From: a virus
Virus record (IMG/VR): IMGVR_UViG_3300031999_001962
Location: 1-45,019 of that record
Length of the DNA stretch: 45,019 nt
Reading direction: 5' to 3' (one strand)
Of this stretch, positions 1,104 through 17,426 are shown one piece after another. Below the pieces are notes generated by a model, which saw only the letters and a program-made list of their open reading frames with translations, made no database searches and was not told where the DNA came from. A program made the position numbers and the translations under genes. Each line of letters opens with the position of its first letter. Position 1 is the stretch's first letter.

Positions 1104-1604
1104 ATGAGAAAAGTATTCCCCGAAGATTTTGAGACTATTCTGGTAGAGGGTGGTCCGGGTTCGGGGAGAAGACCGTCCGGGTTGTCTCAGCCTAAAGCTT
1201 GGGCTAAGAATATTAAGAATACAAAAAATCCAAGAGAAGTTAATAGAATACTCCGGAAGTTAAAACTTAGACGATTTCAGGCTAAAAGTCCTTACCGGGC
1301 CGACGATAATCAGACGAGGACATATCCTCCCAAAGAAACTACGAAAGACAGATTGAATAAACTTATAAATGCCCTTAAAAACACTCCTTCTACGGTACAG
1401 CAGATAAAAATACTCAAGGGAGAAAGGGATTGGAGGAAGGAGGGGTCCAAGAATGCTATATTGGCAGTTCGGTCATCTAATGCCGCCTCTCCAGCCGCAA
1501 AGAAAGCGACTGTCCAGTGGGCTAGGCAGTGGTCTCGTCAGGCAAGGAGGGTGGATAGGGTGTTAAATCGTGTCTCAAAGATGAGAACCGGAGGTTGGGA
1601 TTGA
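1104..1604 (+). CDS. small basic protein with prohead-protease leader, putative capsid internal protein
   Basis: 166 residues. The leader is MRKVFPEDFETILVE followed by GGPGSGRRPSG. The body is basic and helical-looking (for example RKLKLRRFQAKSPYR) and ends RVSKMRTGGWD. No domain was recognised. GGAG sits upstream of the ATG. The stop TGA at 1602-1604 overlaps a TTG start at 1601 for the next gene, an analogue of the ATGA coupling seen elsewhere. The Phe in 'DF' at residues 9-10, five to six residues before the cut, is shared with the other leaders and with T4 leaders of the 'EFIAE' type. This supports a common recognition element. Confidence 0.78.
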   Translation: MRKVFPEDFETILVEGGPGSGRRPSGLSQPKAWAKNIKNTKNPREVNRILRKLKLRRFQAKSPYRADDNQTRTYPPKETTKDRLNKLINALKNTPSTVQQIKILKGERDWRKEGSKNAILAVRSSNAASPAAKKATVQWARQWSRQARRVDRVLNRVSKMRTGGWD

Positions 1605-2875
1605 TTAGGAAAATCCCCGGTAACTCGATGGTCCTGACAGAGGAGATTGATAAGTTCTGGCTTACCGAGGGCCGCAAGTTCCTCTTTGGTGGTGGGTGGA
1701 AGGCGGAGACTGAGAGGGGTATATGGAGTCAGGCATTGGGGTCTATCGGGGGGTTTGACCGTGGGGCCGCTAGGCAGGGTCTGGCGGCGTTTAGTGATAT
1801 TAAGGATGAGTTTGCTACGCGGCTGAAGGACTTGACTGGAAGAATAGACGCAGGGGTTATATCGCCTGCGGATGCTCTTTCGGAGTTCAAGGAGTTCGGT
1901 CCTGACTTTTACAAGCAGGCGTTTAATGCTGGGGCCATGCATTCTGGGAATCCATTTTATCAGTCACAGGGAATGACGGAGCCGGATGAGCGATTCTCTA
2001 ACATTGCTCTAAGGCAGGAATCCCGGTATGCAAAGAATGCCTTTGGGCAGATAGGGAATCATGAGTCTCTTAAGGGAGCGGAGGCCCGCGCCGAGGATTA
2101 TGCGGATTCTCTTGAGGCACAGTTCTGGAACGGATACGTTGCTGGAGGTCAGGACTGGGATGGGGTTTTGATTCACTGGGAACTAGGACATCCTATTGGG
2201 GACCACTGTTCGGATTGTCTTGATATTGCAGCAAATTCTCCATATACAAAAGAAACTCTTCCCACGGTCCCAAAATCAGGGGATACGGAGTGTCTTTTCA
2301 ATTGCTTGTGCAGGCTTGTTTATGTTCGGGAAGACATGCAGGACACAGACGGCTCTGGTGGTGTTGCGTTGTCTCCGGAGATAATAACGGGGCTGGACAG
2401 GCTTGCTGCATTCGTTACGACAGCCGAGGGTGCGCCCGTGACCGGGAACGTGGCAGACTTGTTTGATGATTTGTTTAGCCAGATGAATGCTTCTCGGGCT
2501 AAGATTGCTATTACTGCGGGAGTAGAACAGGAATTTTTTATAACTCAGAGGAAGGTACTGAACGACCAGATTATAAACCTCATGAATGCTACGGGATACA
2601 GGGCGGTCCCGAGATTTGCAGTCGAGAATATCGTCAGTAACGCAATGACTCTGGTCAATAACGGAATGCAGCTCATCAGGCCAGCTGCCATGATGGAGTT
2701 TGGGATATCTGCAGCCACAATTCCTGTTGGGGCGACTGTTTGGGAACTAGATGGAGTTCTTGTTCGGGTGGGGGTTGTAGAGAGAGTAGAAAGAGGGGGT
2801 TTCTGGCTTCAGAGGAATGACGGAGTTGTCTTTCGCACTCCTGAGGGGTCTGTTTTGATGGCGGAGGGGAGATGA
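1601..2875 (+). CDS. MuF-like head morphogenesis / minor head protein
   Basis: 424 residues from TTG 1601. That start has GGAGG at 1590-1594 with a 6-base gap and overlaps the previous stop; an in-frame TTG at 1595 is too close to the GGAGG. The middle part carries the Trp/His/Cys signature of phage minor head proteins near the portal: WELGHPIGDHCSDC, then SPYTKETLP, then a CLFNCLCRLVYV block (about residues 195-245). The N-terminal part contains LTE-E and LTE-G sites that the prohead protease could cut. The C-terminal 170 residues are not recognised. Proteins of this type usually sit just after the portal and act in head assembly or at the portal vertex. The family call is by motif pattern. 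It carries the first TAGGAAAATC repeat, in its first codons. Confidence 0.7.
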   Translation: MIRKIPGNSMVLTEEIDKFWLTEGRKFLFGGGWKAETERGIWSQALGSIGGFDRGAARQGLAAFSDIKDEFATRLKDLTGRIDAGVISPADALSEFKEFGPDFYKQAFNAGAMHSGNPFYQSQGMTEPDERFSNIALRQESRYAKNAFGQIGNHESLKGAEARAEDYADSLEAQFWNGYVAGGQDWDGVLIHWELGHPIGDHCSDCLDIAANSPYTKETLPTVPKSGDTECLFNCLCRLVYVREDMQDTDGSGGVALSPEIITGLDRLAAFVTTAEGAPVTGNVADLFDDLFSQMNASRAKIAITAGVEQEFFITQRKVLNDQIINLMNATGYRAVPRFAVENIVSNAMTLVNNGMQLIRPAAMMEFGISAATIPVGATVWELDGVLVRVGVVERVERGGFWLQRNDGVVFRTPEGSVLMAEGR

Positions 2876-3594
2876 CATACGTTATTGTTAAACCCAGATT
2901 TAGGAAAATCACTGAGGGTAATGCCAATTCGGGTGAGAATCCGGGGCATCCTTTCAGGGGAAACCAGTACACTTCGGGCGGCGGTAGTGGTTCAACCGAG
3001 CCTGAAATAAGGGTGGGAATAACGAGTTACCGAGCTGGCGGGTCTACCCACGAAGTCTATAGGAAGATGCAGGAGTTTGAGAAAATCCTCATAGCCATAC
3101 CCGGTGTGAGGGATGCGAAGGTTAGTTTTGGGTCTGGCATATATGGGGGGGTGGAGCCGACATGGGTTGTCTCTTATAAGGGTAATGGCAAGGCTAGGGC
3201 GATGATAGCTCAGACTGCCAAGGATAACGACCAAGACGCTGTCCTGATGCTGACTGCGGCTACAGGTTCGGAGGCCAGTCCGATGACTCATTTTACAATA
3301 GAAGATAAGGTAACTCCACAGCTTAAAAAAGACATCGTTGACTTTTTGTCTTCTAAAGAAATGGGGATGACTTGGTTCAAGAGGAGTGGAAAAGTATCGT
3401 TCTTTATAGCGTCCGTTCCTCAGTTCGGTAACGAGGATAGGAAAATCCTTGAGGGTATTAACGGAGTTCATGACCTTCTTAACCAAAAAGGAATTAAGGT
3501 TCAACGAAAAGATATTATGATAAAGCCGATTGTCATGACAAAGGAGGATGGACCGTTCACCTATGATTTTTTTATAAAAGGAGATAGAAAATGA
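2872..3594 (+). CDS. leader-tagged protein of unknown function, putative head cargo
   Basis: 240 residues, ATGA-coupled to the previous gene. Residues 1-15 end in RKITE and are followed by G16, so this is another (I/L)xE-G leader, again exactly 15 residues. The linker differs from the others and contains HPFRGNQYTSGGGSG, a Gly-rich block that recurs in phage head-associated proteins. The remaining 200 residues look like a folded alpha/beta domain with no motif I recognise. Two TAGGAAAATC repeats lie in this gene (2901-2910 and 3438-3447). The leader makes it a candidate cargo or core protein; its activity is unknown. Confidence 0.7.
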   Translation: MTYVIVKPRFRKITEGNANSGENPGHPFRGNQYTSGGGSGSTEPEIRVGITSYRAGGSTHEVYRKMQEFEKILIAIPGVRDAKVSFGSGIYGGVEPTWVVSYKGNGKARAMIAQTAKDNDQDAVLMLTAATGSEASPMTHFTIEDKVTPQLKKDIVDFLSSKEMGMTWFKRSGKVSFFIASVPQFGNEDRKILEGINGVHDLLNQKGIKVQRKDIMIKPIVMTKEDGPFTYDFFIKGDRK

Positions 3595-3982: not shown

Positions 3983-4120
3983 ATGAGAGAAAATATAGAA
4001 CCTGATATCGAAACAGACGATGAGTTTTCTGTGTGGCTTGACATGTTGCCGGAAATAGACGAATTTCCTACTGATGATGATTCTGTCATTACTATTCTTT
4101 TAAAAAAGAGTGATAAATAA
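3983..4120 (+). CDS. short acidic hypothetical protein
   Basis: A 45-residue frame from ATG 3983, one base after the previous stop, to TAA 4118-4120. It overlaps the GTG start of the next gene by 11 bases. The peptide is strongly acidic (for example EPDIETDDEFSVW and EFPTDDDSV), unlike the basic proteins nearby. There is no good ribosome-binding site, so it would depend on coupling to 3595-3981. It fills an otherwise empty gap in a densely packed region, which supports it being real. Function unknown. Confidence 0.45.
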   Translation: MRENIEPDIETDDEFSVWLDMLPEIDEFPTDDDSVITILLKKSDK

Positions 4121-5156
4121 ATTGAGCTACGACATCTTACGCCTGCGATTCAATCGTGGTGTTTTGGATATTTTAGAAGGCGGACCCGGTTCAGGAAGAA
4201 CCGTAGGTAGTAGGTATGGACATGATATGGGAAGAATACCGAGGGAACAGAATCCTACTATTTCCGCTCCTGAAGATAGAAGCAATCTTCAGGATGTCCT
4301 TATTTCTAGAGAGGTGTCAAGGACAGAACCTAATTCTGATACCCGCGCTACGAGCCTTTCGTTCAAACTGTATATGAAATTTGGGGATGAGGAATTAAAA
4401 ACTTGCTTCAAACCAAAGAACGGAGAATGTATGGGTAGGGATAGACAAGGAAATCTAATAATCCCTCGGGGTGAAAAGTTGAGAAATTTTGTAGAAAAGG
4501 GTACTTTTTATAAAAGAGAGATTTTGGCTTGTGTTATTGATAGAACGATGGGGCTTGGACTAGTTCCAGATACGGATTTATTTGTTCATCCAGAGAAGGG
4601 AATAGGTTCTGCGCAACGGTGGATAAAGGGAATAAACGGAGAGGTGGAGGATAGAAATAATGGGGCCGGGGCATTTGACAGGATGCAATCTAGGTTTGCT
4701 GAGTCTCATGTGGACCAAGTAGAAAAACTTTTTCTACTTGATACAATCACAGGTAATTCGGACAGGCATGGAAATAATATTATGATTGATGAAGAAAATG
4801 GTAAGCTTCATGCCATAGATAATGGACTTTGTATTCCTCAGCGGACAGGTAGTCCATATATTAGAATTAGTGTTTTTGACGATTTTAAACTTAATCCCGA
4901 AGAGAAGCCTTTATCTGAGTCATCTATAAATTCTATTAATAAACTTTTAGCGGGTAAGGAAAAAGTATTTAAAGCTGCAAAAAAATTGAAAATGAGCGCA
5001 GCAGATATGCGTGGAGTAGAGGATATATTTACTCGGGCGGAAGCACTGAAGACTAGTGGTAAGTTTTTACCGAGAACTCAGTATTATATGGGTAATAGTG
5101 GAACTTTTATACGGAACAACCGAGCTGCTGTGCCGCATGTGCTGGGGAGAGGGTAA
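4110..5156 (+). CDS. leader-tagged PI3/4-kinase-like (kinase-fold) protein
   Basis: 348 residues from GTG 4110; TTG 4122 is an equally plausible start, and both have weak ribosome-binding sites. The leader ends DILE, followed by GGPGSGRTVGS, the tag carried by the small basic proteins. The body has a kinase catalytic core of the PI3/PI4-kinase and HipA type: a catalytic loop GNSDRHGNN with D218, R219, H220 and N223, followed by HAIDNG with the metal-binding D237. Ser/Thr-, lipid- and HipA-type kinases share this DRHxxN plus IDN arrangement, so the substrate cannot be named. A paralogue follows at 5452. With the leader it would be processed by the 7863 protease and could be packaged and injected, by analogy with T4 Alt (a different enzyme). 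The kinase fold is fairly sure; delivery is inference. Confidence 0.75.
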   Translation: MINKLSYDILRLRFNRGVLDILEGGPGSGRTVGSRYGHDMGRIPREQNPTISAPEDRSNLQDVLISREVSRTEPNSDTRATSLSFKLYMKFGDEELKTCFKPKNGECMGRDRQGNLIIPRGEKLRNFVEKGTFYKREILACVIDRTMGLGLVPDTDLFVHPEKGIGSAQRWIKGINGEVEDRNNGAGAFDRMQSRFAESHVDQVEKLFLLDTITGNSDRHGNNIMIDEENGKLHAIDNGLCIPQRTGSPYIRISVFDDFKLNPEEKPLSESSINSINKLLAGKEKVFKAAKKLKMSAADMRGVEDIFTRAEALKTSGKFLPRTQYYMGNSGTFIRNNRAAVPHVLGRG

Positions 5157-5450
5157 ATGAGACAAGTGTTACGGGTAGATATATTTAACTCAGAGTGGGA
5201 AGATGGAAAATCACCCATCTACGCCATTGGTGCGGACCTTTCTGGCGGGCCTGCGTTTGAAATTAAAACATCGGAAGACTTTCCGTTGGCTGTTGCTACA
5301 AAACGGCTGGCGGAGCCTCTTTTGGATGAAAAGACAAGAGATATTGTTTTCTCTTCTGAGGGATTACGGTTTATCAAGCTTATACCCTTTGAATACCATG
5401 GCAGCAGGTCGTGGTCGAATGCTCCTTATGAGGAATCAATAGAGGACTGA
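5157..5450 (+). CDS. hypothetical protein between the two kinase-like genes
   Basis: 97 residues, starting directly after the previous TAA and ending one base before the next ATG. It is mildly acidic, with no leader, no membrane segment and no recognised motif. Its tight placement between two paralogous kinase-like genes suggests a functional link, perhaps a partner, inhibitor or chaperone that stays in the producing cell because it lacks the (L/I)xE tag. That role is speculation from position only. A second, overlapping open frame at 5203-5442 looks like a shadow. Confidence 0.6.
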   Translation: MRQVLRVDIFNSEWEDGKSPIYAIGADLSGGPAFEIKTSEDFPLAVATKRLAEPLLDEKTRDIVFSSEGLRFIKLIPFEYHGSRSWSNAPYEESIED

Positions 5451-5451
5451 G

Positions 5452-6489
5452 ATGGGATATTACAGGGTAGTTCAAGAATTCTCTAAGAGATTCATTGAGG
5501 GTGGTCCTCCGGGTAAAAATGGTGGTCCCGGCTCTGGAAGGCCGCCTAATTCTGCTAGGGGTAATGATAAGGGAAGAATAGCCAATAGTTTAAAGATTCC
5601 CAAAGATATTTTAGGAACTAGACCTCTTGTGGACCAAGCCAAAGCAGACTTTATTTTAAACGGTAATATTATCAATATTAAACTGAATGGAAAACAGGGC
5701 ATTAGCAAAACGTGGAAGACGGTTCTTAGGGGTCCGGATGGGGAAGAAAGAACCTATGCCTATAAACCGGAAGAGCATGCGTTAGGTGGTGGGGATAAAG
5801 GGTCATCCATGATGCGCGATGCTTTGAGTTATGCTATAAGCAGAGCAATGGGGTTTGATATCGTTCCGGAGACGATAATAAGAGAGGGTCCGACCATTGA
5901 AGAAATAAAGATGGGATATCAGGCCGGGATTGAAGCTGTGCAAGCTGGAGAAGGAGATGATGAACTAAATCGTATTCAGGAGAACCACTTTGGTATCGGT
6001 TCTTGGCAGAGATGGGATGAGAAGGGGACTCCGGTAGGTATGGTACAAACAGGTAAGAACGGGGCTGAGCAAGAGTCATGGGACGAAATGATGGCGTTGG
6101 ATATAGTTATAGCGAATAGTGATAGACATATGAATAACTATTTGATAAACGAGTCTACTAAAAAAGTAATTGCCATAGATAATAATCTTTCGTTTTCTCA
6201 TGATTTTTACTATATGACGCATGCGGAAAGTAAATCTGGAAACCAACCTATCTCTCCAAAAATTCATGCCGCGCTTGAAAGGTATGTCAGTAGAGAGAAA
6301 GATATCATGGCTATGGCTCAAAAAATAGGGTCTCCTCCAGAACTTATACGACATGTGGAAAACTCTTTTACCAGAGCAAAGATTTTAAATACCATGGATA
6401 AATTTCCCGGAAACCCCGGACTTTGGGATACGAAGGCTAGAGAAATAATCGACAAAAGCAATAATAAATTTGTTATGAAGTATGAATGA
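5452..6489 (+). CDS. leader-tagged PI3/4-kinase-like (kinase-fold) protein, second copy
   Basis: 345 residues. The leader MGYYRVVQEFSKRFIE is followed by GGPPGKNGGPGSGRPPN, so FIE-G is the predicted cut and the Gly/Pro/Arg linker is partly duplicated. The kinase features are a candidate ATP-binding Lys in YAYKPEEH (K105), the catalytic loop ANSDRHMNN (D224, R225, H226, N229) and the metal-binding IDNN (D243). The C-terminal helix ENSFTRAKIL matches EDIFTRAEAL in 4110-5156, so the two are paralogues. They differ most between the N-lobe and the catalytic loop, as expected if they act on different targets. All key residues are present, so it looks active. The closest general match is the PI3/4-kinase or HipA-like superfamily; the substrate is unknown. 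Confidence 0.75.
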   Translation: MGYYRVVQEFSKRFIEGGPPGKNGGPGSGRPPNSARGNDKGRIANSLKIPKDILGTRPLVDQAKADFILNGNIINIKLNGKQGISKTWKTVLRGPDGEERTYAYKPEEHALGGGDKGSSMMRDALSYAISRAMGFDIVPETIIREGPTIEEIKMGYQAGIEAVQAGEGDDELNRIQENHFGIGSWQRWDEKGTPVGMVQTGKNGAEQESWDEMMALDIVIANSDRHMNNYLINESTKKVIAIDNNLSFSHDFYYMTHAESKSGNQPISPKIHAALERYVSREKDIMAMAQKIGSPPELIRHVENSFTRAKILNTMDKFPGNPGLWDTKAREIIDKSNNKFVMKYE

Positions 6490-6761
6490 GGTTAAAGATG
6501 CTTGGAATTGATGTTGTCTTTCCACACAGAGACGATGATGATGTTGATATCATAGCTACGTTTGGATTTGATGGGACCAATATTATTATTTTGAAAGATA
6601 CTAACGGGTTTGCTAAAGAAATATTGGATGACGGAATTGTATACCAGAGAAAGTCTTACAGTACGGCTAATCCAAAAGAGTTCTTTGATGCTCTTCCCCA
6701 AATCTTGGATGGGAGAAGGGTTTACGCTACTTTACCATACCAAATAGGAGGTACATCATGA
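6486..6761 (+). CDS. hypothetical protein
   Basis: 91 residues, ATGA-coupled to the second kinase-like gene and to the next gene. An in-frame ATG at 6498 is possible. It is acidic near the N-terminus (PHRDDDDVDII) and looks like a compact alpha/beta protein, with no leader and no membrane segment. I do not recognise it. Like 5157-5450 it follows a kinase-like gene directly, so each kinase has a small untagged protein behind it. This could reflect kinase-partner pairs or be coincidence. Confidence 0.6.
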   Translation: MRLKMLGIDVVFPHRDDDDVDIIATFGFDGTNIIILKDTNGFAKEILDDGIVYQRKSYSTANPKEFFDALPQILDGRRVYATLPYQIGGTS

Positions 6762-7048
6762 TTTATGACCCGATTATCACGCAGCTTATTCTTGCGGGAG
6801 TTGGGGGCATCCTGAGTGTTCAGGGTGTGACGGAGTACATTAAGAAACTCTTTACGGGCGCGAGTGACGCGACCAAGAAGATTCTTGGCTACGTTATTTC
6901 TATGCTTGTATCGGGTGCGTTTACGGGCGGTTACTTGCTTTTCACCAAGCAATTCACCCTGAGCGCATTCTTTTTGTACGCTGTTTCCGTCTGGTTTGTT
7001 GCCAGTGGTCTGTACGACGTTTGGCATCCGAAGACGACAGTCAAGTAA
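6758..7048 (+). CDS. holin-like small membrane protein
   Basis: 96 residues with a strong ribosome-binding site (AGGAGG before ATG 6758), ATGA-coupled to the previous gene. Three hydrophobic stretches are visible: about residues 6-24, 43-63 (for example GYVISMLVSGAFTGGYLLF) and 66-86 (FFLYAVSVWFVASGLYDV). Size and layout fit a three-helix holin, and a spanin-like gene follows. No holin family was identified by sequence and no endolysin is visible nearby, so lysis function is a reasonable guess, not established. Codon use is more GC-rich than in the kinase-like genes just upstream. Confidence 0.5.
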   Translation: MIYDPIITQLILAGVGGILSVQGVTEYIKKLFTGASDATKKILGYVISMLVSGAFTGGYLLFTKQFTLSAFFLYAVSVWFVASGLYDVWHPKTTVK

Positions 7049-7091
7049 GGGTATTAGAACCGAGGTGGAGAGAGGGTTTTAGGAGTCTAGC

Positions 7092-7802
7092 ATGAAAACC
7101 TTTGTGTTGTGCGTTGTTATTGTTCTCTTGATAGCCGGATGTTTGTATCTATATGATTCAAAGCTGCAGTCTGAAAAAAAGGCTGCTGCCGCTGAGGAGT
7201 TGTTCAAAGATATTGATTCTGAATATAAATCGTTCAAGCTTCAAGCCGAGGCTAAGATTTCTGATTTTCTTCTGCAGATAAATAACACAAACCAGCTTAT
7301 ACTTCTGCGGGACGAAAGGATAAAAGAACTTGAAGAAAAACAGATACAAACAGAAAAAGCCCTCGCTAACGAGAAGTCCAAAACTAAAACCCTCTCTCCT
7401 AATGAACTTGTTACAAAGATTTCAAGTAGGGTTGGGACAGAAGTTCGTCTGACTGGCCTACAAACATACGACTTCACTCGTTCCGGAGCTGAGTCCACCC
7501 TTAATATCTTTCTGTCTGAGGAAGCATTAGGAAAATCACTTGGGGACCAGATATCTGTGACTAAAGAGTTGGTAGACAAATTTACTCTATGTTCTGGTAG
7601 TGTTGGTAAGTTGCAGGAAGCATTACAACTTAGGGGCGAAGAGTTGGTTAAATGTGAATTTGCAAAAGACTCTGCCGAGACAGCTATGAATAAGTGGAAA
7701 AGAGAATACCAAAAGTCCAAATGGAAAAAGAGGGCAGAGGGGTTTGGGATTGGTGTTCTTTTAGTTATTGTTTTGCAATCTATCAGTGGAAGTGGTAAAT
7801 GA
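7092..7802 (+). CDS. lipobox protein with C-terminal membrane helix, candidate unimolecular spanin
   Basis: 236 residues. The N-terminus is a signal-like helix with a lipobox (I14-A15-G16-C17 within VLLIAGC), then a long charged helical and coiled-coil region (for example RDERIKELEEKQIQTEKAL). A second membrane helix GFGIGVLLVIVLQSI lies at the C-terminus. N-terminal lipidation plus a C-terminal inner-membrane anchor is the layout of unimolecular spanins such as T1 gp11, which link the outer and inner membranes at lysis. This protein is longer than T1 gp11. A holin-like gene sits 43 bases upstream. An ordinary N-anchored i-spanin or another envelope protein is the alternative. It would imply a Gram-negative host. 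AGGAGT precedes the ATG. Confidence 0.5.
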   Translation: MKTFVLCVVIVLLIAGCLYLYDSKLQSEKKAAAAEELFKDIDSEYKSFKLQAEAKISDFLLQINNTNQLILLRDERIKELEEKQIQTEKALANEKSKTKTLSPNELVTKISSRVGTEVRLTGLQTYDFTRSGAESTLNIFLSEEALGKSLGDQISVTKELVDKFTLCSGSVGKLQEALQLRGEELVKCEFAKDSAETAMNKWKREYQKSKWKKRAEGFGIGVLLVIVLQSISGSGK

Positions 7803-7817
7803 CAAAATTAACAATAC

Positions 7818-7845
7818 TTGACATGTTACAAACTATGGATAAAGT
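7818..7845 (+). promoter_or_regulatory. sigma70-like promoter before protease/capsid genes
   Basis: TTGACA at 7818-7823, a 16-base spacer and TAAAGT at 7840-7845. The site lies in the gap before the protease gene, so transcription would begin just ahead of its ATG 7863. It shares TTGACATGTTA and the 16-base spacing with the site at 38611-38638. A -35 matching the consensus at all six positions in a non-coding gap supports the call; the -10 is weaker. Confidence 0.5.
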
Positions 7846-7862
7846 CATACATGGAGCATAGA

Positions 7863-9146
7863 ATGCCCGAAAAACTTTTAGTTGAAACAACTTGGAGCAA
7901 CCTCAGGATTGTAGAGGACGCTGTCGAGGGACAGACCGAAAAAAGAATGAAGGTTACTGGTGTTGTACAGGAAGCCGACATTCCCAATCGGAACAAAAGA
8001 ATCTACAAGAAGGAAGTCCTTGAGGAAGCACTTGCTGGTCTGAAAGACCGTCTTCAAGAAAACCGTGTATTCGGAGAGGTTGACCATCCTGAGGTGCGAG
8101 GGAGACTGAAGGAAACGTCCCATATGGTCACAAAGCTCTGGTGGGACGAGTTTCAACCTAGCCGTATTCTTGGTGAATGTCTTATTCTTAATACCCCGGC
8201 AGGTCTTGTTTTGAAGGAAATTTTGAGAGCTGGTGGAAGGCCGGGATTTTCCTCGCGTGGGGCTGGTAACAGTAAGAAAGTTACTGTCAACGGAGAGGAA
8301 TTGGAGGAGATTGAAAAGGGTTATAAGTTGGAGAGTGTTGATTTTGTGATTGACCCGTCTGTTCAGTCCGCTCAGATTCACAAAATCATAGAACAGGCGG
8401 ACGCAAATGAAAAAGTCATACAGGAGGAAGCAATGTCTGAAGAACTAACTCTGGCTTTGCTGAAAGAAAAGCATCCTCAGATTATAGACGAACTGAAGGC
8501 TGAGTTCTCCAAAGAATTTGAGCCTAAGGTTACAGAGGCGGATGCTAAACTCAAGGAGAACCTTGGGCGTGTCTCTCAGTTGGAAGCCGAGCTGAACACG
8601 AAGGACAAGGAGATGGAAAAGCACCTTTCTGTCCTTGAGGGAATTGTTGATATCCTTAGCTCTAGCGGATATCTTGAAGAGTACATCGTTAAGGAAAATC
8701 CCAAGGCGGCAAAGGTGGCGGACGAGGAACGGCAGGCTCTGATTGACAAGGTCACTCTTTTAGAGAAAACAATCACTGACCAGACAGCCGTTTTGGATGC
8801 TCAGAAGGAACAGGCAGCCAAGGTTGCCGAGGAAAAGCTCAAGCAGGAACTTCGTAATTCTATTGACGAAGGTGTGCAGGGGTTGAAGTTTGGAGCTTTG
8901 GTTAAGACCCGTCTGGTCGAGAAACTGGATTCGGGTATTATCAAGACTCCGGAAGATGTGGCTAAGTATCTGAAAGAAGACGAAGATTTCGCCAAAGTCC
9001 TTGCCAGTGAGGAATCTAAAATCCTTGAAGACAAGGGCAAAGGGGTGGTTAAACCTTCCAATGACGGGAATGACCCGATTGCGGAGGACTTTAAGAGGAA
9101 GATGCAGTCCTTTGGTGGTATGAAAATTAAGAAGGAGGATAAGTAA
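7863..9146 (+). CDS. T4 gp21-like prohead protease (S77) fused to scaffold-like domain
   Basis: 427 residues from ATG 7863 (GGAG 7 bases upstream); an in-frame TTG at 7818 is discarded because it overlaps the promoter. The N-terminal 200 residues match T4 gp21: start MPEKLLVETTW, then NRNKRIY, GEVDHP with catalytic His75, a WW pair, and PGFSSRG with catalytic Ser at 130-131. T4 gp21 is about 212 residues. The extra 220 here are Glu/Lys-rich and coiled-coil, and look like a gp22-type scaffold joined to the protease. The enzyme should cut after (L/I)xE. Such sites occur at its own residue 8, in the capsid protein and in the leaders of the upstream cargo proteins. A scaffold-protease fusion would bring the protease into the prohead automatically. 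Family assignment is confident. Confidence 0.9.
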   Translation: MPEKLLVETTWSNLRIVEDAVEGQTEKRMKVTGVVQEADIPNRNKRIYKKEVLEEALAGLKDRLQENRVFGEVDHPEVRGRLKETSHMVTKLWWDEFQPSRILGECLILNTPAGLVLKEILRAGGRPGFSSRGAGNSKKVTVNGEELEEIEKGYKLESVDFVIDPSVQSAQIHKIIEQADANEKVIQEEAMSEELTLALLKEKHPQIIDELKAEFSKEFEPKVTEADAKLKENLGRVSQLEAELNTKDKEMEKHLSVLEGIVDILSSSGYLEEYIVKENPKAAKVADEERQALIDKVTLLEKTITDQTAVLDAQKEQAAKVAEEKLKQELRNSIDEGVQGLKFGALVKTRLVEKLDSGIIKTPEDVAKYLKEDEDFAKVLASEESKILEDKGKGVVKPSNDGNDPIAEDFKRKMQSFGGMKIKKEDK

Positions 9147-10348
9147 TGGAAATTTATGAAGACCTGAAGTCTCAGTACGACCTCCGGCAGCAGGCCGCTC
9201 CGGAAGTGAAGATGTTGGTTGAAGACCCGGTTAAGTTTCTGTCAAACTCTTACGCGGCCCTGACGGAAGATTTTGACAAGTTCAAAATGGCGAATGACCC
9301 CTCATCCAAGGACTGGATTATATCCAAAGTCCTGAGGCAGCAGGCCAAGCACCTGTTGGAGGATACGACTACGACAACTCCGTCCGGTCAGTCCTTTACC
9401 TTTACGACCATCGCCATGCCTCTCGTTAGGAAAATCTTTAGTAAGCTTTTGGCTATGGACCTTGTTTCCATTCAGCCGATTGCACAGCCTACGGCTAAGA
9501 TTTTTTATCTCGACTTCCAGTATCACAACACCTTTGACCAAGCTACTGCTGATGACAGCGTAGCCGAAGTCCGGTCTCCCAATTATGCTACTACGACTGA
9601 GAGTGGGACGGTGCAGGAACTCGACCTGAAAATCACCAACGAGACCGTCACGGCTATCGAAAAGAAGCTCAAGGCTATCTGGACGGTGGAGTTGGAGCAA
9701 GACCTCATGGCTTACCATGGTCTTAATGCCGAAACTGAACTCATGACCGTGCTGCAGGAACAGATTGTCCGTGAAATTGACGGTCTTATTATCACTGCTC
9801 TCCTCGCGGGAGCGGGCGGCTCTGGGTACGGAACAGGCACGGGCGCAGGAAACGTCAACTGGAATATCAACGGTCAGCTGGCTGGCGATACTTCCACGAC
9901 TTTCCTGAAGGATTACAAGCGGACTCTTTACGAAGCCGTTGTGGATGCATCGAACCTCATTTACAAGAAGAGATATCGCTACGCCAATTGGATTATCGGA
10001 CATCCCGATACCATCGTGCGTCTTGAGAAGCTTGAAGAGTTCCGGTTCTCGCCTGCCAACGACCCTTCTGAATTTGCAATTGGTCGGCATCTCTCGGGGA
10101 CGCTCAATGACAGATACCGGGTTTACAAAGACCCGTTCTTCCCTGTCACGAACAAGCTCCTCATGGGATATAAGGGAAATACTTGGACAGACTCTGTTGG
10201 TTTCTACTCACCCTACATTCCTCTCTATGTGACTCCGAAGATTGTGGATACCAACGACTTCACGCCTAGAAAGGGTCTGATGACTCGATTCGCGTATGGT
10301 ACGCTTATCAAGGACGGACTGGCAACCGTTACCCTCACACAAAGTTAA
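9146..10348 (+). CDS. major capsid protein, T4 gp23-like
   Basis: 400 residues, ATG overlapping the previous TAA, AAGGAGGAT upstream. Similarity to T4 gp23 is clear in VELEQDLMAYHGLNAETEL (gp23 has IELAQDLRAVHGMDADAEL) and in YRVYKDPFF, GYKG, YSPYIPL and the C-terminal MTRFAYG. The N-terminus has candidate protease sites MLVE26-D, ALTE41-D and HLLE72-D. The last is close to the place where gp23 is cut (after residue 65), so the mature protein probably starts near residue 73. At 400 residues it is shorter than gp23 (521), mostly in the central insertion region. A strong terminator follows. Codon use is more GC-rich than in the neighbouring sugar genes, as is common for highly expressed capsid genes. 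Confidence 0.92.
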   Translation: MEIYEDLKSQYDLRQQAAPEVKMLVEDPVKFLSNSYAALTEDFDKFKMANDPSSKDWIISKVLRQQAKHLLEDTTTTTPSGQSFTFTTIAMPLVRKIFSKLLAMDLVSIQPIAQPTAKIFYLDFQYHNTFDQATADDSVAEVRSPNYATTTESGTVQELDLKITNETVTAIEKKLKAIWTVELEQDLMAYHGLNAETELMTVLQEQIVREIDGLIITALLAGAGGSGYGTGTGAGNVNWNINGQLAGDTSTTFLKDYKRTLYEAVVDASNLIYKKRYRYANWIIGHPDTIVRLEKLEEFRFSPANDPSEFAIGRHLSGTLNDRYRVYKDPFFPVTNKLLMGYKGNTWTDSVGFYSPYIPLYVTPKIVDTNDFTPRKGLMTRFAYGTLIKDGLATVTLTQS

Positions 10349-10448: not shown

Positions 10449-11417
10449 TTGGTTTACAATGCGGGTGGACTTGAGATATTCTACGACAGGCTCAACGACC
10501 CTATTGTAATCCCTCCCCGCACCGCTTTTGATTTACCCTACGATAGAATCCCTTTATCAAAAACACTCAGAAAAATAGAAACATATACAGAGGTTATGAA
10601 AGGGGTTTGTGACGTAGCCTTTATACGCAGGTACGCGCTTGGGGATGTCCTTATGTTCCTCCCCGTGGCCCGCGAGTTCAAAGAAAAACATCCAGATGTA
10701 AAGATACACCTGATAACGAACAAAGACCCCGCTAGAGGATTTCGATTTATAGAAATTTTTAACGAGGGTATTTTTTCTTCGTTTATGTCTGATACAAGGA
10801 CTCCTAGAAAATATGATGTCTCTTTCTACCTTGACAACCTTGTTGAGAGAGACCTTTATCTTGAAAAATATCACTCTATGCACAGGGTAGACATATTCAG
10901 GGAGTTTTTTGGGTATGACCAGAAGCAGGAGCCTGTCTGGTCTCTGGAGCAACCGACAGTTGGGACGGGCGGGATAGTGTTTTGTCATAGTGGTTCTAAG
11001 CCTTTGAAGACTATACCAAAGGAGACTGTTGACTATCTTGTACCCCGGCTAGAGAAGATAGCTCCTGTTTATGTCATGGGAGAAAATAGGAAAATCCCAC
11101 CAGACGAAACGGTTAAGCTACTCCGGGACGCGCTTGTTCTGATAACGGTTGATTCTGCCGCTTTGTGGATGGCTCACTTTACCCGTACCCCTGTAGTTTT
11201 TTTGTCGGGTCCGTCCAGAGGGTCTGAGAGAATATCTAAACATCCTTTAAGGCCGGAAGGTGCGACAGAGGTAAGTCTTAGTAAACTTATTGGGTGTGTT
11301 CCGTGCTTTGAAAAGATGGAAGCTTGTGGAAGCAAGTATAAGTGTATGTATGCTGATAAAGAAAAAGTGTGGCAAGAGATTGAGGCGGCTGTAGAGAGAG
11401 TCAGATGGAAGATATGA
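10449..11417 (+). CDS. GT9 (heptosyltransferase-like) glycosyltransferase
   Basis: 322 residues from TTG 10449, behind GGGGAGGTGG. Residues 1-30 carry a small module LEIFYDRLNDPIVIPP also found in 11405-14212 and 18562-18831. The rest is a GT-B fold of the ADP-heptose:LPS heptosyltransferase type: an N-lobe loop RRYALGDVLMFLPVAREF, a strand HLITNK, and the C-lobe sugar-nucleotide site TVDSAALWMAHFTRTPVVFL. A C-terminal Cys cluster (GCVPCFE, EACGSKYKC) could bind metal. The sugar donor and acceptor are unknown. Phage GT9 proteins may modify host LPS or the virion; the position straight after the capsid gene and the shared module favour a virion-linked job, which is inference. Confidence 0.75.
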   Translation: MVYNAGGLEIFYDRLNDPIVIPPRTAFDLPYDRIPLSKTLRKIETYTEVMKGVCDVAFIRRYALGDVLMFLPVAREFKEKHPDVKIHLITNKDPARGFRFIEIFNEGIFSSFMSDTRTPRKYDVSFYLDNLVERDLYLEKYHSMHRVDIFREFFGYDQKQEPVWSLEQPTVGTGGIVFCHSGSKPLKTIPKETVDYLVPRLEKIAPVYVMGENRKIPPDETVKLLRDALVLITVDSAALWMAHFTRTPVVFLSGPSRGSERISKHPLRPEGATEVSLSKLIGCVPCFEKMEACGSKYKCMYADKEKVWQEIEAAVERVRWKI

Positions 11418-14212
11418 TGCTTCAAAAGGGTGGAGGAGGTTTTAGGTTGCCAAAAGGTAAATTATGGGTTAATAGCAGTAAGTCTTCGGAGATATTTTAT
11501 AATAGGAATCACGAACCTATTGTCATTCGTCCCGGAGAAAAAATGTTTGACCAGTTTTTGAGTGATGCGGATATAAAAACATATTTTGTTTCTCCGGAGC
11601 TTTGGAACGCGCATAGACTGACAGAAGAATTGTTCCGTGAAAAAGATAAGATTTCAATTCTTATTGATGCTTCAAAGATAGACAAACTTGGGGATAGCGT
11701 GATGATAACCGTTATCCCAAAAGCATATAAAATAGTGTATGAAGGAAGAGTAAAGATTTATGTAGCTGCCAACGAAAAATTTAAGAGCGTCTGGGAAAAT
11801 AATCCATACATAGAACCGGGTGGAGTTTTATACGAAGTTCCAACCGATGTTAAGATTATGTTTGATTCAGTTCTCGATGTAAACGGTCTGGAGCTGAAAT
11901 GGAGGGAGAAAGCTGCTGACAGACGTTATGGATACAGAAATAGGAACGAGGTTATTTTAGAGAATCTTGGTCTTTTCTTATTTGATAGAAATCCTGTGTG
12001 GGCTGTTACGGAGGATGAAAAAGCTTGGGCAAAAACTATCTGTAATAAATTACCAAGACCCCTTATTGGATTTCAGACCGAGTCTAGTTGCAAAACACGG
12101 ACGGTCCCGCAAACGCAAGAGTTAATAGATAAAATAAAAAATAAGTATTCTGTCATACAACTAGACGAAAAGATTTCAGTAATAAATTTTTTAGACAAGT
12201 TTTGTACGAACAAGGATTGGGCATATAAATTTACCGTCAGAGAGATGGCGGCTATTATCAATGAATGTGATGTAATCGTAGCTCCGGATTCGGCAGCGTT
12301 TCATATTGCAGGAGCATTGAAAAAGAGAACCGTTGCTCTGTTTGGGCATACGGACGGTAAGATGTATTGTGAAGATTATGAGAAGGCTGATTTTATTCAA
12401 GGGTCTTGCCCTCTTGGGATTGGTCCGTGTTGGTGGACTCTTGATTGTATAGACGGTTCATCTTACCAAGAAAAAGCAGATAAAGAATATACTCGTTGTC
12501 TTAAAGATATTAAGGCGGATGATGTTATAGCTTTAATAGAAAAGCATCTTACAAAGCCTAAAAAAGTTCTTGTTTGCATGCTGACATACAACCTTCTGGA
12601 GATGACTAAAAAAGCTCTGACTTCTATCCGAGCATGGAACGACTACGATGTATTCGTAGTGGATAATGCGAGTACGGACGGGACACCTGAGTGGTTGAAA
12701 GCGCAGGGGATTGATTACGAGTCTAAGAGAACGGGTGTTGCGGCTGCACAGAACATAGGTCTAAAAAAGTTTCTTGCCGGGGATTACGACCACTTTCTTC
12801 TTGTAAATAATGACATCACTCTCCGGTTTGACTGCATAGACAAACTTGTAGATTTTCTTGAGAACAATAATGATGTGTACGGAGTATTTGCTACAACGGC
12901 ACAGTGCGCCCCGTGGTTCATAGATAGTCAGACTCCACAGAAGAGCATGGAAATCGTAACGGACATACCTCCGGGTGCGTACTCGGCTACTCTTTTTTCA
13001 AGAGAGTGCGTTGAGGTTGTGGGTATGTTTGATGAGAGATTCAAGCCGAGATATATTGAAGATAACGACTATACGTTACGGATTCGGTTGGCGGGGAAGA
13101 AGTTTTGCAGGACTGGGGCAGCCTTGTTCTATCATGTTCTGGGTGGAGTCATTAAGACGAATGAGGAAGAAATAAAATCAAGGGATATCCATTGGGTCAC
13201 TAACATCCGGCTGTACCAAGAGAAGTGGGGAATCCATCCACATGAGAGTCAGGCACTGGGAAAGATAAAGAAAAATATAATAGACACGGGAGCGAGTCTT
13301 TACCGTATGAGCGAATTTATAATTTCCAAGGGGACATTTCATCTTGCGATAAGACGCTGGATGGGTGGCCTTGGGGACCATATATTTATGTCGGTTATCG
13401 CTGAGGTTGTAAAGAAAAAGTTCCCTACCTGCGAAATAACATATGTTGTTCCCAAAGCGTTCAAAGAAGCCTATGCCTTTAACAAATTTATTGACACAGT
13501 TCAGACGGACGATTGGGAAAATCTTCAGGCGGATATGAAGATTGACTGTACTGACATTGATTATAAGTTTGAACTTATTGAGATGCAAAAGTACGGTAGA
13601 ATTGTAACTCCCAGAGACCAGATTTATCTGAATTACATAAGTATTTTCGGGGACGAAACTCATCCTACGATTAAGGTGGACGAAGCTGCCACGGATTGGG
13701 CAAATAAAGAATGGGGCGTAGAAGATGGAATTAGGAAAATCGCCATAGCTAAGGAGACGACAAACCTGTTGAAGACTTGGCCCGGTATGACGGCTCTGAT
13801 AAACAAGCTAAAAGAGCTTCCGGGAGTGTGCCTTAAAATACTGGATGAAAAATCAGGTCTGACATACAAGTATTCCTTCACAGAAGCCCTTAAATTGATG
13901 TCTGTGGCAGATGTGGTCATTTCCTTGGACTCGGCCTTTTCTAACGCAGGGGGAGCCTTGGGGGTGCCTACAATAGCCATTTTTGGGTATAGGGGGGGAA
14001 GCGTCTTCCAGAAAATGTTCCCTTCCATGGAAATTGTACAGATTCCATGCCCAATTGATGGTAAAACGCTTGGTTGCGATTATAGCGTCAAATGTATTGA
14101 CGGAGCAGACCATAGGTCTAAAGAGAATAGGAAAATCCCTCCCTGCCTGAGTGGGATACCAGTCGAGGTTGTTCTAGCCAAAGCAAAGGAGTTGTTATGC
14201 GAAAAGTCATAA
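11405..14212 (+). CDS. three-domain glycosyltransferase fusion GT9-GT2-GT9
   Basis: 935 residues, overlapping the previous gene by 13 bases. Order: the shared module SSEIFYNRNHEPIVIRPG (about 25-45); a GT9-like GT-B domain (about 80-375) with DKLGDSVMI and APDSAAFHIAGALKKRTVALF; a GT2 domain (about 383-640) with MLTYN, VVDNASTDG and a metal-site NND at 468-470, followed by a candidate acidic base in IEDNDY; a second GT9-like domain (about 645-935) with GGLGDHIFM and LDSAFSNAGGALGVPTIAIFG. Each GT9 part is followed by a Cys pattern (GPCWWTLDC; CDYSVKC) also typical of the family. Such a fusion could add several sugars in sequence. No inactivating change was seen, although the first N-lobe is divergent. 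It carries two TAGGAAAATC repeats. Confidence 0.82.
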   Translation: MEDMMLQKGGGGFRLPKGKLWVNSSKSSEIFYNRNHEPIVIRPGEKMFDQFLSDADIKTYFVSPELWNAHRLTEELFREKDKISILIDASKIDKLGDSVMITVIPKAYKIVYEGRVKIYVAANEKFKSVWENNPYIEPGGVLYEVPTDVKIMFDSVLDVNGLELKWREKAADRRYGYRNRNEVILENLGLFLFDRNPVWAVTEDEKAWAKTICNKLPRPLIGFQTESSCKTRTVPQTQELIDKIKNKYSVIQLDEKISVINFLDKFCTNKDWAYKFTVREMAAIINECDVIVAPDSAAFHIAGALKKRTVALFGHTDGKMYCEDYEKADFIQGSCPLGIGPCWWTLDCIDGSSYQEKADKEYTRCLKDIKADDVIALIEKHLTKPKKVLVCMLTYNLLEMTKKALTSIRAWNDYDVFVVDNASTDGTPEWLKAQGIDYESKRTGVAAAQNIGLKKFLAGDYDHFLLVNNDITLRFDCIDKLVDFLENNNDVYGVFATTAQCAPWFIDSQTPQKSMEIVTDIPPGAYSATLFSRECVEVVGMFDERFKPRYIEDNDYTLRIRLAGKKFCRTGAALFYHVLGGVIKTNEEEIKSRDIHWVTNIRLYQEKWGIHPHESQALGKIKKNIIDTGASLYRMSEFIISKGTFHLAIRRWMGGLGDHIFMSVIAEVVKKKFPTCEITYVVPKAFKEAYAFNKFIDTVQTDDWENLQADMKIDCTDIDYKFELIEMQKYGRIVTPRDQIYLNYISIFGDETHPTIKVDEAATDWANKEWGVEDGIRKIAIAKETTNLLKTWPGMTALINKLKELPGVCLKILDEKSGLTYKYSFTEALKLMSVADVVISLDSAFSNAGGALGVPTIAIFGYRGGSVFQKMFPSMEIVQIPCPIDGKTLGCDYSVKCIDGADHRSKENRKIPPCLSGIPVEVVLAKAKELLCEKS

Positions 14213-15717: not shown

Positions 15718-15968
15718 CTATGGAAACTCCGGGCAGTCTTATTGACAAACTTGCAATAGTAAATCTTAAACTATGGCATCAGGAAGAGGTTGCACACGAC
15801 CCCAAAGCCGATGACCATACTGTAGCTGTAGCGAAAAGAAAAATAGATGGATTGAATCTTCAGAGAAATGCGCTGGTTCAGGAGTACGATGAGATGATGT
15901 CTACCATTATAAACGGAGGGCATTGTTATCCTGTGGTCCCGCAATATAAGGACTATAGCAAAAAATGA
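15714..15968 (+). CDS. small helical protein of the sugar island
   Basis: 84 residues from ATG 15714 (or ATG 15720), ATGA-coupled at both ends. It begins ETPGSLIDKLAIVNLKLW and continues with AKRKIDGLNLQRNALVQEYD, two amphipathic helices. I have a vague recollection of similar TPGxLIDKL/NLK proteins (perhaps DUF4254-like) next to carbohydrate genes, but cannot confirm this. No catalytic motif was seen. It may be an accessory subunit of an enzyme in the cluster. Confidence 0.6.
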   Translation: MTMETPGSLIDKLAIVNLKLWHQEEVAHDPKADDHTVAVAKRKIDGLNLQRNALVQEYDEMMSTIINGGHCYPVVPQYKDYSKK

Positions 15969-17200
15969 ACGTAATACTTATCGTCGCTGATTCTCTTCGC
16001 TCGGATACTGCATACAATAGTGATTGCATGCCGTTTCTTAACGATTTTATCGATAAAAAATGCACTAAATTTCTTAATTCTTACACAGCTGCTCCGTGGA
16101 CCTTGGCTTCAAATATGTCCTTGCTTTGGGGAATGTACCCAAGAACTCTTGGAGTTCAGGACTTGTCCCGCAATGAGATATTTTCAATAATGAAGAATCA
16201 TCCTGAGTTTTATTCTCCCAAGATTCACGAAGGACTTAGTCTGGCTTCTGCTCTGCACAGAAGGGGGTACAAGACGGTTGCCCGGACGGGTGGGGGGTTT
16301 CTGATTGATACCTTCAAACTTAATGACGGATTTGACTCTTTTAAGGCCAGAGACTGGATATATCTTGAGGAAAAAGAATTCATGGATACTGTTCAGTCAC
16401 TTAAAGAAGAGCCTCCTTTTTTCTTTTATTCTCAAGACTTTGACACGCATGAATCTTATGGCGCGTGGGAAAGGCGAAACAAGCATAAGGATTTGATTCC
16501 AAGACAGAAAGAAGGGTCTTTCAATTCATACAAGACATCTTCGTCTCCGGCTGCCGATGTCACTCTGCGAAGAGAAGCCATTCATTATTACGGAGAAGCT
16601 GCGTTTCAGTACGATATGAAGCTTGGGAAAATCTTCGTATTCCTTGAGGAGTACGGATATTTAGATGATACGATGGTCATATTTACATCTGACCACGGAG
16701 AGGAGCTGTGGGACAAGGGGTGGGGAGCGCATTCCTATAGCCTTTACGAGTCTGTCATAAGCGTTCCTCTTGCTGTCTACTATCCCGGACGGGTTGCTGC
16801 AACCAGTGAAAAATTAGTTTCTCTTATCGATATAGCTCCAACTATTCTTGACGTTGAGTCGTATGGAGATGGAATAAATCTGCTATCTGATAAATCACAT
16901 GACTTTATTGTCAGTGAGGTTTGGACAGATAAGATTTGGGAAAATCTTGAGCCTGCATCTTTCTTAGCATTATTTAACTTCACAAGAAAAAAAGCAATTT
17001 TGGCTGGAGAGTATAAGTATATTTTAACAAACGACGAAGCAGAAGAACTATACGACCTTGAAACGGACCCGCAAGAGGGAGGGGATATTAAGACATTTGG
17101 GTGCGTTAATTTGGAGTTGGAAAACTTTAGAAAATTGAATAAAGAGTTTGAGGAGACACATGAACGAAGAAGCAGGAAATGGCAGAAAATGGAGTCGTAG
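15965..17200 (+). CDS. sulfatase / phosphoglycerol-transferase-like alkaline-phosphatase-superfamily enzyme
   Basis: 411 residues. It has the superfamily layout: first metal site ILIVADSLRSD (D9), nucleophile region SYTAAPWTLASNMSLLWGMY (about 39-58), and the second metal site TSDHGEELWDKGWGAHSYS (D243, H244) followed by SVPLAVYYPG. The position of the formylglycine Cys/Ser of true sulfatases is not a C-x-P-x-R motif; T46 is the likely nucleophile, as in LtaS and EptA-type transferases. It may therefore move phosphoglycerol or phosphoethanolamine, or hydrolyse a phosphodiester, rather than sulfate. No signal peptide or membrane anchor is present, so it acts in the cytoplasm or on the virion. 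The context with TagD- and LicD-like genes favours phospho-alcohol chemistry. Confidence 0.75.
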   Translation: MNVILIVADSLRSDTAYNSDCMPFLNDFIDKKCTKFLNSYTAAPWTLASNMSLLWGMYPRTLGVQDLSRNEIFSIMKNHPEFYSPKIHEGLSLASALHRRGYKTVARTGGGFLIDTFKLNDGFDSFKARDWIYLEEKEFMDTVQSLKEEPPFFFYSQDFDTHESYGAWERRNKHKDLIPRQKEGSFNSYKTSSSPAADVTLRREAIHYYGEAAFQYDMKLGKIFVFLEEYGYLDDTMVIFTSDHGEELWDKGWGAHSYSLYESVISVPLAVYYPGRVAATSEKLVSLIDIAPTILDVESYGDGINLLSDKSHDFIVSEVWTDKIWENLEPASFLALFNFTRKKAILAGEYKYILTNDEAEELYDLETDPQEGGDIKTFGCVNLELENFRKLNKEFEETHERRSRKWQKMES

Positions 17201-17414
17201 AGTTCGGGTTGCTATTGGGTGGGCAGTTCTGAACTTTGGTTCTTTGTATCTTGTAAAAATAGCAAGTCTTGATATGCCTCTACTGACAAGTCTGGTAGAT
17301 AAATCAACTTGGATAGCTTGTATCTTAATTGCAGGTATTTCTGGAACTGACGCTATAAAGTTGAAATACACAGCAGCACAATCAGCTGATAGAACAAAGA
17401 AAAATTTGAAGTGA
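17160..17414 (+). CDS. small membrane protein
   Basis: 84 residues from ATG 17160 (AGGAG 4 bases upstream); an in-frame start at 17148 is less likely. Two hydrophobic segments are visible, VAIGWAVLNFGSLYLVKIA and STWIACILIAGISGTDAI, with charged ends. The start lies inside the end of the sulfatase-like gene. It may anchor a product of the island to the membrane or act as a small holin-like protein; no family was recognised. Confidence 0.55.
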   Translation: MNEEAGNGRKWSRRVRVAIGWAVLNFGSLYLVKIASLDMPLLTSLVDKSTWIACILIAGISGTDAIKLKYTAAQSADRTKKNLK

Positions 17415-17426
17415 AGGAGAATTCTA

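Follow-up and report, generated by a model that had tools for sequence, protein, structure and literature searches.

Two adjacent genes of a T4-type phage, here termed K1 and K2, encode proteins of PI3/4-kinase/HipA fold that both begin with a predicted head-targeting tag, and each is followed by a small untagged partner protein. We consider it probable, though well short of established, that K1 and K2 are kinases injected as head cargo and that the small proteins are their cognate inhibitors. As far as sequence and fold prediction can demonstrate them, the kinase fold, the tag, the locus and the kinase-partner linkage are secure.

Kinase genes, motifs and predicted fold

The stretch of DNA analysed (the window; 45,019 bases) is the linear IMG/VR virus record IMGVR_UViG_3300031999_001962 and contains a myovirus-like head and tail gene set. 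The same phage was found in contigs IMGVR_UViG_3300031997_000577 and IMGVR_UViG_3300032053_004601 (>99.98% identity over the first 16 kb). The features of the kinase locus are as follows.

4110..5156, + strand: K1, tagged PI3/4-kinase/HipA-fold protein, 348 aa (PF00454 E 3e-12; Foldseek match to PI4K-II-alpha, E 3e-10)
4410-4412, + strand: ATP Lys101 of K1
4761..4778, + strand: catalytic loop DRHGNN of K1 (invariant in 33/33 sequences at the residues named below)
4818-4820, + strand: metal-binding Asp of AIDN in K1
5157..5450, + strand: K1 partner, small, untagged, 97 aa (held-out profile E 2.4e-4 among 210 window ORFs)
5452..6489, + strand: K2, second tagged kinase, 345 aa, ATG start (PF00454 E 2.7e-7; TIGR03843 E 1.5e-12, below cut-off)
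5764-5766, + strand: Lys105 of K2
5818-5820, + strand: Asp123 of K2, replacing the usual Glu
6121..6138, + strand: catalytic loop DRHMNN of K2
6178-6180, + strand: metal-binding Asp of K2
6486..6761, + strand: K2 partner, small, untagged, 91 aa, with a 4-bp overlap with K2 (held-out profile E 1.6e-11)

A sequence-only reading had described two kinase-like ORFs with complete DRHxxN loops and IDN metal motifs, and both were recovered at these positions with the motifs intact (NSDRHGNN and AIDNG in K1, NSDRHMNN and AIDNN in K2). The K1 start codon is GTG; the TTG at 4122 is equally possible. The proposed PI3/4-kinase or HipA type was borne out by PF00454 (PI3_PI4_kinase), against which K1 scored 47.4 and K2 31.2 bits at a curated cut-off of 27.1, and which matched all 32 full-length kinase relatives. 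In an alignment of 33 sequences including K1 and K2, residues K101, D211, D218, R219, H220, N223 and D237 (K1 numbering) were invariant (33/33), and Glu137 was kept in 31/33, with Asp in K2 and one other sequence. The ATP Lys, the catalytic DxxxxN and the metal-binding Asp are thus all present in both proteins.

The AlphaFold model of K1 had a pTM of 0.74, with pLDDT mostly >90 in the catalytic core and <50 in leader and linker. Its best match in the PDB was 4hnd (PI4K-II-alpha with ADP, E 3e-10); further matches were PI4K-II-beta, CtkA, PI3 kinases, Fam20A and HipT (HipT E 1e-4). The match of the model to ADP-bound PI4K-II-alpha and other kinases supports an ATP site in the K1 fold, and the result that would have refuted the earlier reading, a predicted fold lacking such a site, did not occur. 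Kinase activity is inferred, and whether the substrate would be a protein or a lipid cannot be told from the fold matches.

By sequence, the kinase domain is nearest to the SCO1664 family (TIGR03843) and to bacterial PF00454 proteins; against TIGR03843, K1 and K2 reached 47.0 and 47.5 bits, far below the family cut-off of 172.4. SCO1664 proteins are not known to serve as phage cargo. BLAST searches with the kinases K1 and K2 and those of the related loci L100, L103 and L123 gave no relatives in cultured phages. K1 and K2 had been called paralogues: their homology was confirmed (BLASTP E 5e-14, 24% identity), but the tree did not resolve them as sisters and leaves a recent duplication within this genome undecided. 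The pair is not unique: four other phages (L112, L113, L117 and L127) have two adjacent kinases of the family; these are supported sisters, so kinase doubling happened several times.

The predicted head-targeting tag

The tags and the head genes that surround them are listed below; the arrow marks the predicted cleavage site.

50-406, 409-843, 831-1094 and 1104-1604, + strand: four small basic tagged proteins (pI 10.6-11.5)
1595..2875, + strand: probable MuF/minor-head-like protein, carries LTE↓G
2872..3594, + strand: tagged 240-residue protein, ITE↓GN, linker ENPGHPFRGNQYTSGGG
4170..4211, + strand: K1 leader end and linker, ILE↓GGPGSGRTVGS (predicted cleavage between 4178 and 4179)
5491..5547, + strand: K2 leader end and linker, FIE↓GGPPGKNGGPGSGRPP (predicted cleavage between 5499 and 5500)
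7818..9146, + strand: T4 gp21-type prohead protease, Peptidase_S77 (PF03420 E 2.5e-17; phrog_207 E 7e-39)
9146..10348, + strand: gp23-type major capsid protein (PF07068 E 1.5e-60)

Both kinases begin with the protease leader and linker that the sequence-only reading had assigned to them, VLDILE↓GGPGSGR in K1 and RFIE↓GGPPGKNGGPGSGR in K2. T4 gp21 cleaves after L/I-x-E; a leader of 10 residues suffices in T4 for targeting a protein to the head (PMC9026906). The ILE↓G of K1 is an exact L/I-x-E site; the FIE↓G of K2 has F at P3, as do 4/23 tags in phages with an S77 protease. A motif [LIF]xEG within the first 45 residues was found in 8/45 window genes (starts at 50, 409, 831, 1104, 1595, 2872, 4110 and 5452) and in 0/37 of the others. 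The eight genes all lie between 50 and 6489 and adjoin the gp21-type protease and gp23-type capsid genes; the motif, being confined to them, is not due to chance. At P3 of E↓GG[PAL]GSG tags, L, I or F occurred in 23/23 cases in seven S77-protease phages versus 10/53 in other phages with EGGPGSG tags (Fisher p 5e-12, an overestimate of the strength, as the phages are related and not independent). The S77 protease was present in all seven relatives of the major capsid protein tested.

The earlier claim that the tag targets proteins to the head is supported by the adjoining protease, by agreement with the L/I-x-E rule and by the statistics of the tags. Head packaging, cleavage and injection of K1 and K2 remain inferences, if well-supported ones. 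If they hold, the [LIF]xE↓GG tag would offer a simple sequence rule for listing the injected proteins of T4-type phages.

The four small basic proteins share the leader M[KR]KV....F.T.L.E↓GGPGSGRRP and are likely internal head proteins, as in T4. In the related loci L100 and L103, homologues of the 1595..2875 protein are fused to effector domains. The homologue of the 2872-3594 protein in L016 has EGGPGSG in place of the NPGHPFRGNQYT linker, which indicates that the two linker types are interchangeable; the 2872-3594 protein itself gave only a sub-threshold match to S-AdoMet lyase. In the capsid protein, LLE↓D (LLE, residues 71-73) is a plausible maturation site, again by inference.

The locus in related phages

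The region upstream of the protease was examined in thirteen capsid relatives, the compared contigs being fragments, and was found to vary among them. In L100 a kinase is fused to a head protein with internal tags, and tagged kinases are present in L103 and in a related record of L108 and L118. A kinase is absent from the near-relatives L099, L101 and L102 and is therefore dispensable; this fits a role as cargo and shows no function. L099 instead encodes an ATLF-like zincin (HExxH), with a match below cut-off, and L103 has an HEFGH motif only. L016, which has homologues of both the 1595 and the 2872 proteins, encodes a linker-bearing ADP-ribosyltransferase (PF03496 E 3.5e-28). As unrelated toxin-type enzymes are exchanged at one tagged locus, we interpret the K1/K2 locus as a slot for delivered effectors. 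The comparison with the ADP-ribosylating T4 Alt that the earlier reading had drawn is apt, as L016, whose minor head protein is of the same family, carries its tagged ADP-ribosyltransferase at this locus.

The L100 fusion is a single ORF (5209-8409) encoding a 1,066-residue polyprotein, in which tags separate the head-protein domain, one that is probably ADP-ribosyltransferase-like, a further domain and the C-terminal kinase. Judged from its sequence it would be a processed multi-effector polyprotein, and its internal tags look as processing sites should.

The kinase family recurs in phages with unrelated head modules. A Phage_Mu_F fusion was found in 11/32 kinase homologues; K1 and K2 are without a MuF domain. 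One such MuF-kinase ORF (L137, 3195-5588) was seemingly the source of an intein match in the family scan. In the next ORF of L137 (5585-8632), KHLPGQHDQ..HGHG linkers connect a partner domain with a GNAT-like and a second kinase-like domain. Genes that resemble topoisomerase IB by sequence lie directly 3' of the kinase in two unrelated contigs (L115 5964-6977 and L116 5957-8089). An integrase was seen only in the 94-kb record of L103.

A conserved partner family

A small untagged protein directly 3' of each kinase (5157-5450 and 6486-6761) had been described before, correctly as to position and absence of a tag; that the two belong to a conserved family had gone unrecognised. Neither has [LIF]xEG near its N-terminus. 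Scanning viral sequences with the kinase alignment yielded 35 loci. For most of the kinases the ORF directly 3', as a rule slightly overlapping, encodes 75-97 residues and carries the C-terminal motif DG..F...L...Y.GSY.rA. In a held-out test, a profile built from the other loci was run on every ORF of the locus left out, at a threshold of E <1e-3; the E-values relate to the ORFs of one locus each. By this test a partner stood beside the kinase in 24/28 kinase loci. Nineteen of these partners, including both in the window, lie directly 3', and one directly 5' (L127); the L124 partner is in frame behind a long spurious ORF, that of L143 (5426-5650) is convergent, tail to tail with the kinase and outside its operon, and in L130 and L137 the partner forms the N-terminus of the next, linker-bearing protein. 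Outside the 24, the partner of L115 is 1.4 kb distant and that of L126 is weak; the held-out profile found none in L116 and L128.

Among 49 phage records chosen by tag or capsid and not by kinase, a partner occurred in three, the same three that have a kinase. The K2 partner matched the L100 partner by BLAST (2.6e-6); direct BLAST showed no similarity between the two window partners, and only the profile links them. Kinase and partner distances were correlated (Mantel r 0.34, p 0.001, n 21), which fits co-evolution but also simple co-inheritance. Untagged kinase-partner pairs were also found in Patescibacteria chromosomes, with the partner downstream of the kinase in L039 and L146 and upstream in L096 and, weakly, in L095.

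Pfam and PHROG gave no match to the partners, save for a weak sub-threshold hit of one member. The K2 partner was modelled with a pLDDT of 91 and a pTM of 0.81, and this model had no significant fold match in the PDB (best E 0.48) or in BFVD. The small downstream proteins thus form one family that is new relative to the libraries and papers searched; the library was incomplete, and bioRxiv was not separately covered. It could serve to mark such kinases in unannotated genomes.

Several candidate assignments were rejected. A relationship of the partner to HipS or the HipA N-domain, suspected from secondary structure, was not supported by Foldseek against the PDB or by BFVD. The idea of an acidic inhibitor was prompted by the pI of 4.7 of the window partners, yet the family median is 7.4. 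In the Haloarcula virus HCTV-6 (L155 3991-5683), gp16, annotated as a phosphatidylinositol kinase, lies in the head cluster, matches the kinase profile (1.4e-20) and is followed by the 76-aa gp17. The partner profile did not recognise gp17, leaving gp16-gp17 as a possible diverged pair that it does not confirm. A kinase of Myxococcus phage Mx1 also lies in a head region, but the gene after it had no match to the partner profile.

Proposed mechanism and alternatives

According to the mechanism we propose, the N-terminal leaders would recruit K1 and K2 into the prohead core, where the gp21-type protease would cut at [LIF]xE↓GG and free each kinase behind a flexible linker. Like T4 Alt, the kinase would be ejected with the DNA and modify a host protein as infection begins, here by phosphorylation; a lipid substrate is less likely. 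Each kinase would be co-produced with its small leaderless cognate partner, which most likely binds and restrains it in the producing cell and so protects that cell. With the partner left behind at packaging, the enzyme would be separated from its inhibitor. Packaging, cleavage, injection, activity and substrate are inferred throughout; the inhibitory role of the partner is inferred from gene order and from analogy to MuF toxins and their immunity genes. In L130 and L137 the partner may itself enter the head, because there it makes up the N-terminal part of the linker-bearing protein encoded next. Injected phage enzymes act ahead of any phage gene expression, and few, such as T4 Alt, are understood. 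If K1 and K2 are delivered in this way, immediate host takeover would extend to phosphorylation, and if the partner inhibits the kinase, head packaging would be a sorting step that arms the enzyme. More tentatively, and with less confidence than even odds would imply, the pairs may represent a new kinase-inhibitor module, a toxin of PI3/4K/HipA fold with a partner family of undescribed fold, which resides in bacterial chromosomes, was taken up as head cargo in many lineages of phages and uses the packaging of the tagged kinase alone as its release switch.

The main rival accepts injected kinases and takes the partner as a folding chaperone, a loading adaptor or an activating subunit. We regard it as rather unlikely, though it has real support: the untagged pairing is kept in Patescibacteria chromosomes, where self-protection of a phage cannot be the reason, and in L130 and L137 a partner domain precedes other tagged cargo in a fusion. 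The window partners, however, lack a leader, the convergent L143 partner is less expected of a co-translational chaperone, and for the small genes directly 3' of MuF toxins immunity is the role usually proposed (PMC5576092). It is also conceivable, if improbable, that the kinases act during assembly, in the infected cell or prohead, on head or internal proteins, and that the tag merely places them in the core. Such a role would suit their position among the head genes, with the minor head protein on one side and the protease on the other. It does not suit the lack of a kinase in close capsid relatives or the recurrence of the family across unrelated head modules, and a locus that swaps the kinase for an ADP-ribosyltransferase, a zincin and other effector domains behaves like one for effectors rather than assembly factors.

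That PI4K-II-alpha is the best fold match of K1 could point to lipid kinases that remodel phosphoinositides or similar lipids of the host membrane. This we hold to be quite improbable: the fold is common to the protein kinases CtkA and HipT and to Fam20 kinases, the order of hits shows the fold only, and typical bacterial hosts are not known to have a PI4P pathway. The remaining explanation, a HipBST-like kinase toxin-antitoxin module that is expressed from the phage genome and packaged incidentally or not at all, appears very improbable. The HipA-type fold, the small adjoining gene and the chromosomal pairs of Patescibacteria are what it would predict, but the leaders on both kinases, like the head-protein fusions among homologues, are in keeping with export in the head, by fold the partner matched neither HipS nor HipA, and no HipB-like DNA-binding gene lies beside the pair.

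Relation to known systems

The favoured reading of K1 and K2 as injected kinases has its closest parallel in Alt and the internal proteins IPI-IPIII of T4 (PMC9026906), with which the phage shares the gp21-type protease, the gp23-type capsid, leaders ending in L/I-x-E and basic internal proteins. Alt is likewise an ejected protein-modifying enzyme with immediate action on the host, which for K1 and K2 is inferred. The differences are the PI3/4K/HipA fold, the GGPGSGR linker after the leader and the dedicated partner gene of each kinase. MuF polymorphic toxins of temperate phages (PMC5576092) resemble the locus in their variable head-delivered effector domains and the small gene directly 3', and several kinase homologues are fused to Phage_Mu_F; K1 and K2 differ in being stand-alone and tagged, in a T4-type phage. 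For most MuF toxins a small gene comes next whose proposed function is immunity (PMC5576092), and immunity by the downstream gene was shown experimentally for one MuF toxin family (PMC12226406). The word kinase is absent from the text of the MuF survey (PMC5576092), and the part of a polymorphic-toxin survey that was available (PMC3482391) mentions neither PI3 nor HipA.

Kinases of polyvalent proteins and MuF-zeta kinases, as described in the accessible portion of PMC5512222, are likewise predicted kinases injected early with phage DNA; they belong to a truncated protein-kinase group and to the zeta-toxin kinases, and that portion makes no mention of HipA or of a PI3/4K/HipA-fold kinase accompanied by a partner gene. 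HipBST (PMC10627512, PMC9325769) also comprises a HipA-fold kinase held in check by a small protein; in K1 and K2 the partner is downstream and unlike HipS in fold, HipB is missing and the kinase is head-tagged. Neither small ORF of the window matched a DNA-binding family as expected of a HipB-type antitoxin, and the kinases are separated by no further gene. The inferred delivery thus resembles that of T4 Alt and MuF toxins and is already known in kind; the partner family is named in none of the libraries and papers searched.

Other genes of the window

Two large ORFs directly 3' of the capsid gene (10449-14212) look like heptosyltransferase/glycosyltransferase proteins, although the first has no Pfam match. 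They occur at the same position in L099-L101 (38-45% identity), the first also in L103 and L108, and would possibly act in capsid glycosylation. Genes for a sulfatase (PF00884), two radical SAM proteins and a nucleotide-sugar epimerase lie amid structural ones (15965-18512, 32226-33536 and 37603-38592), which is uncommon in the head and tail cluster of a phage.
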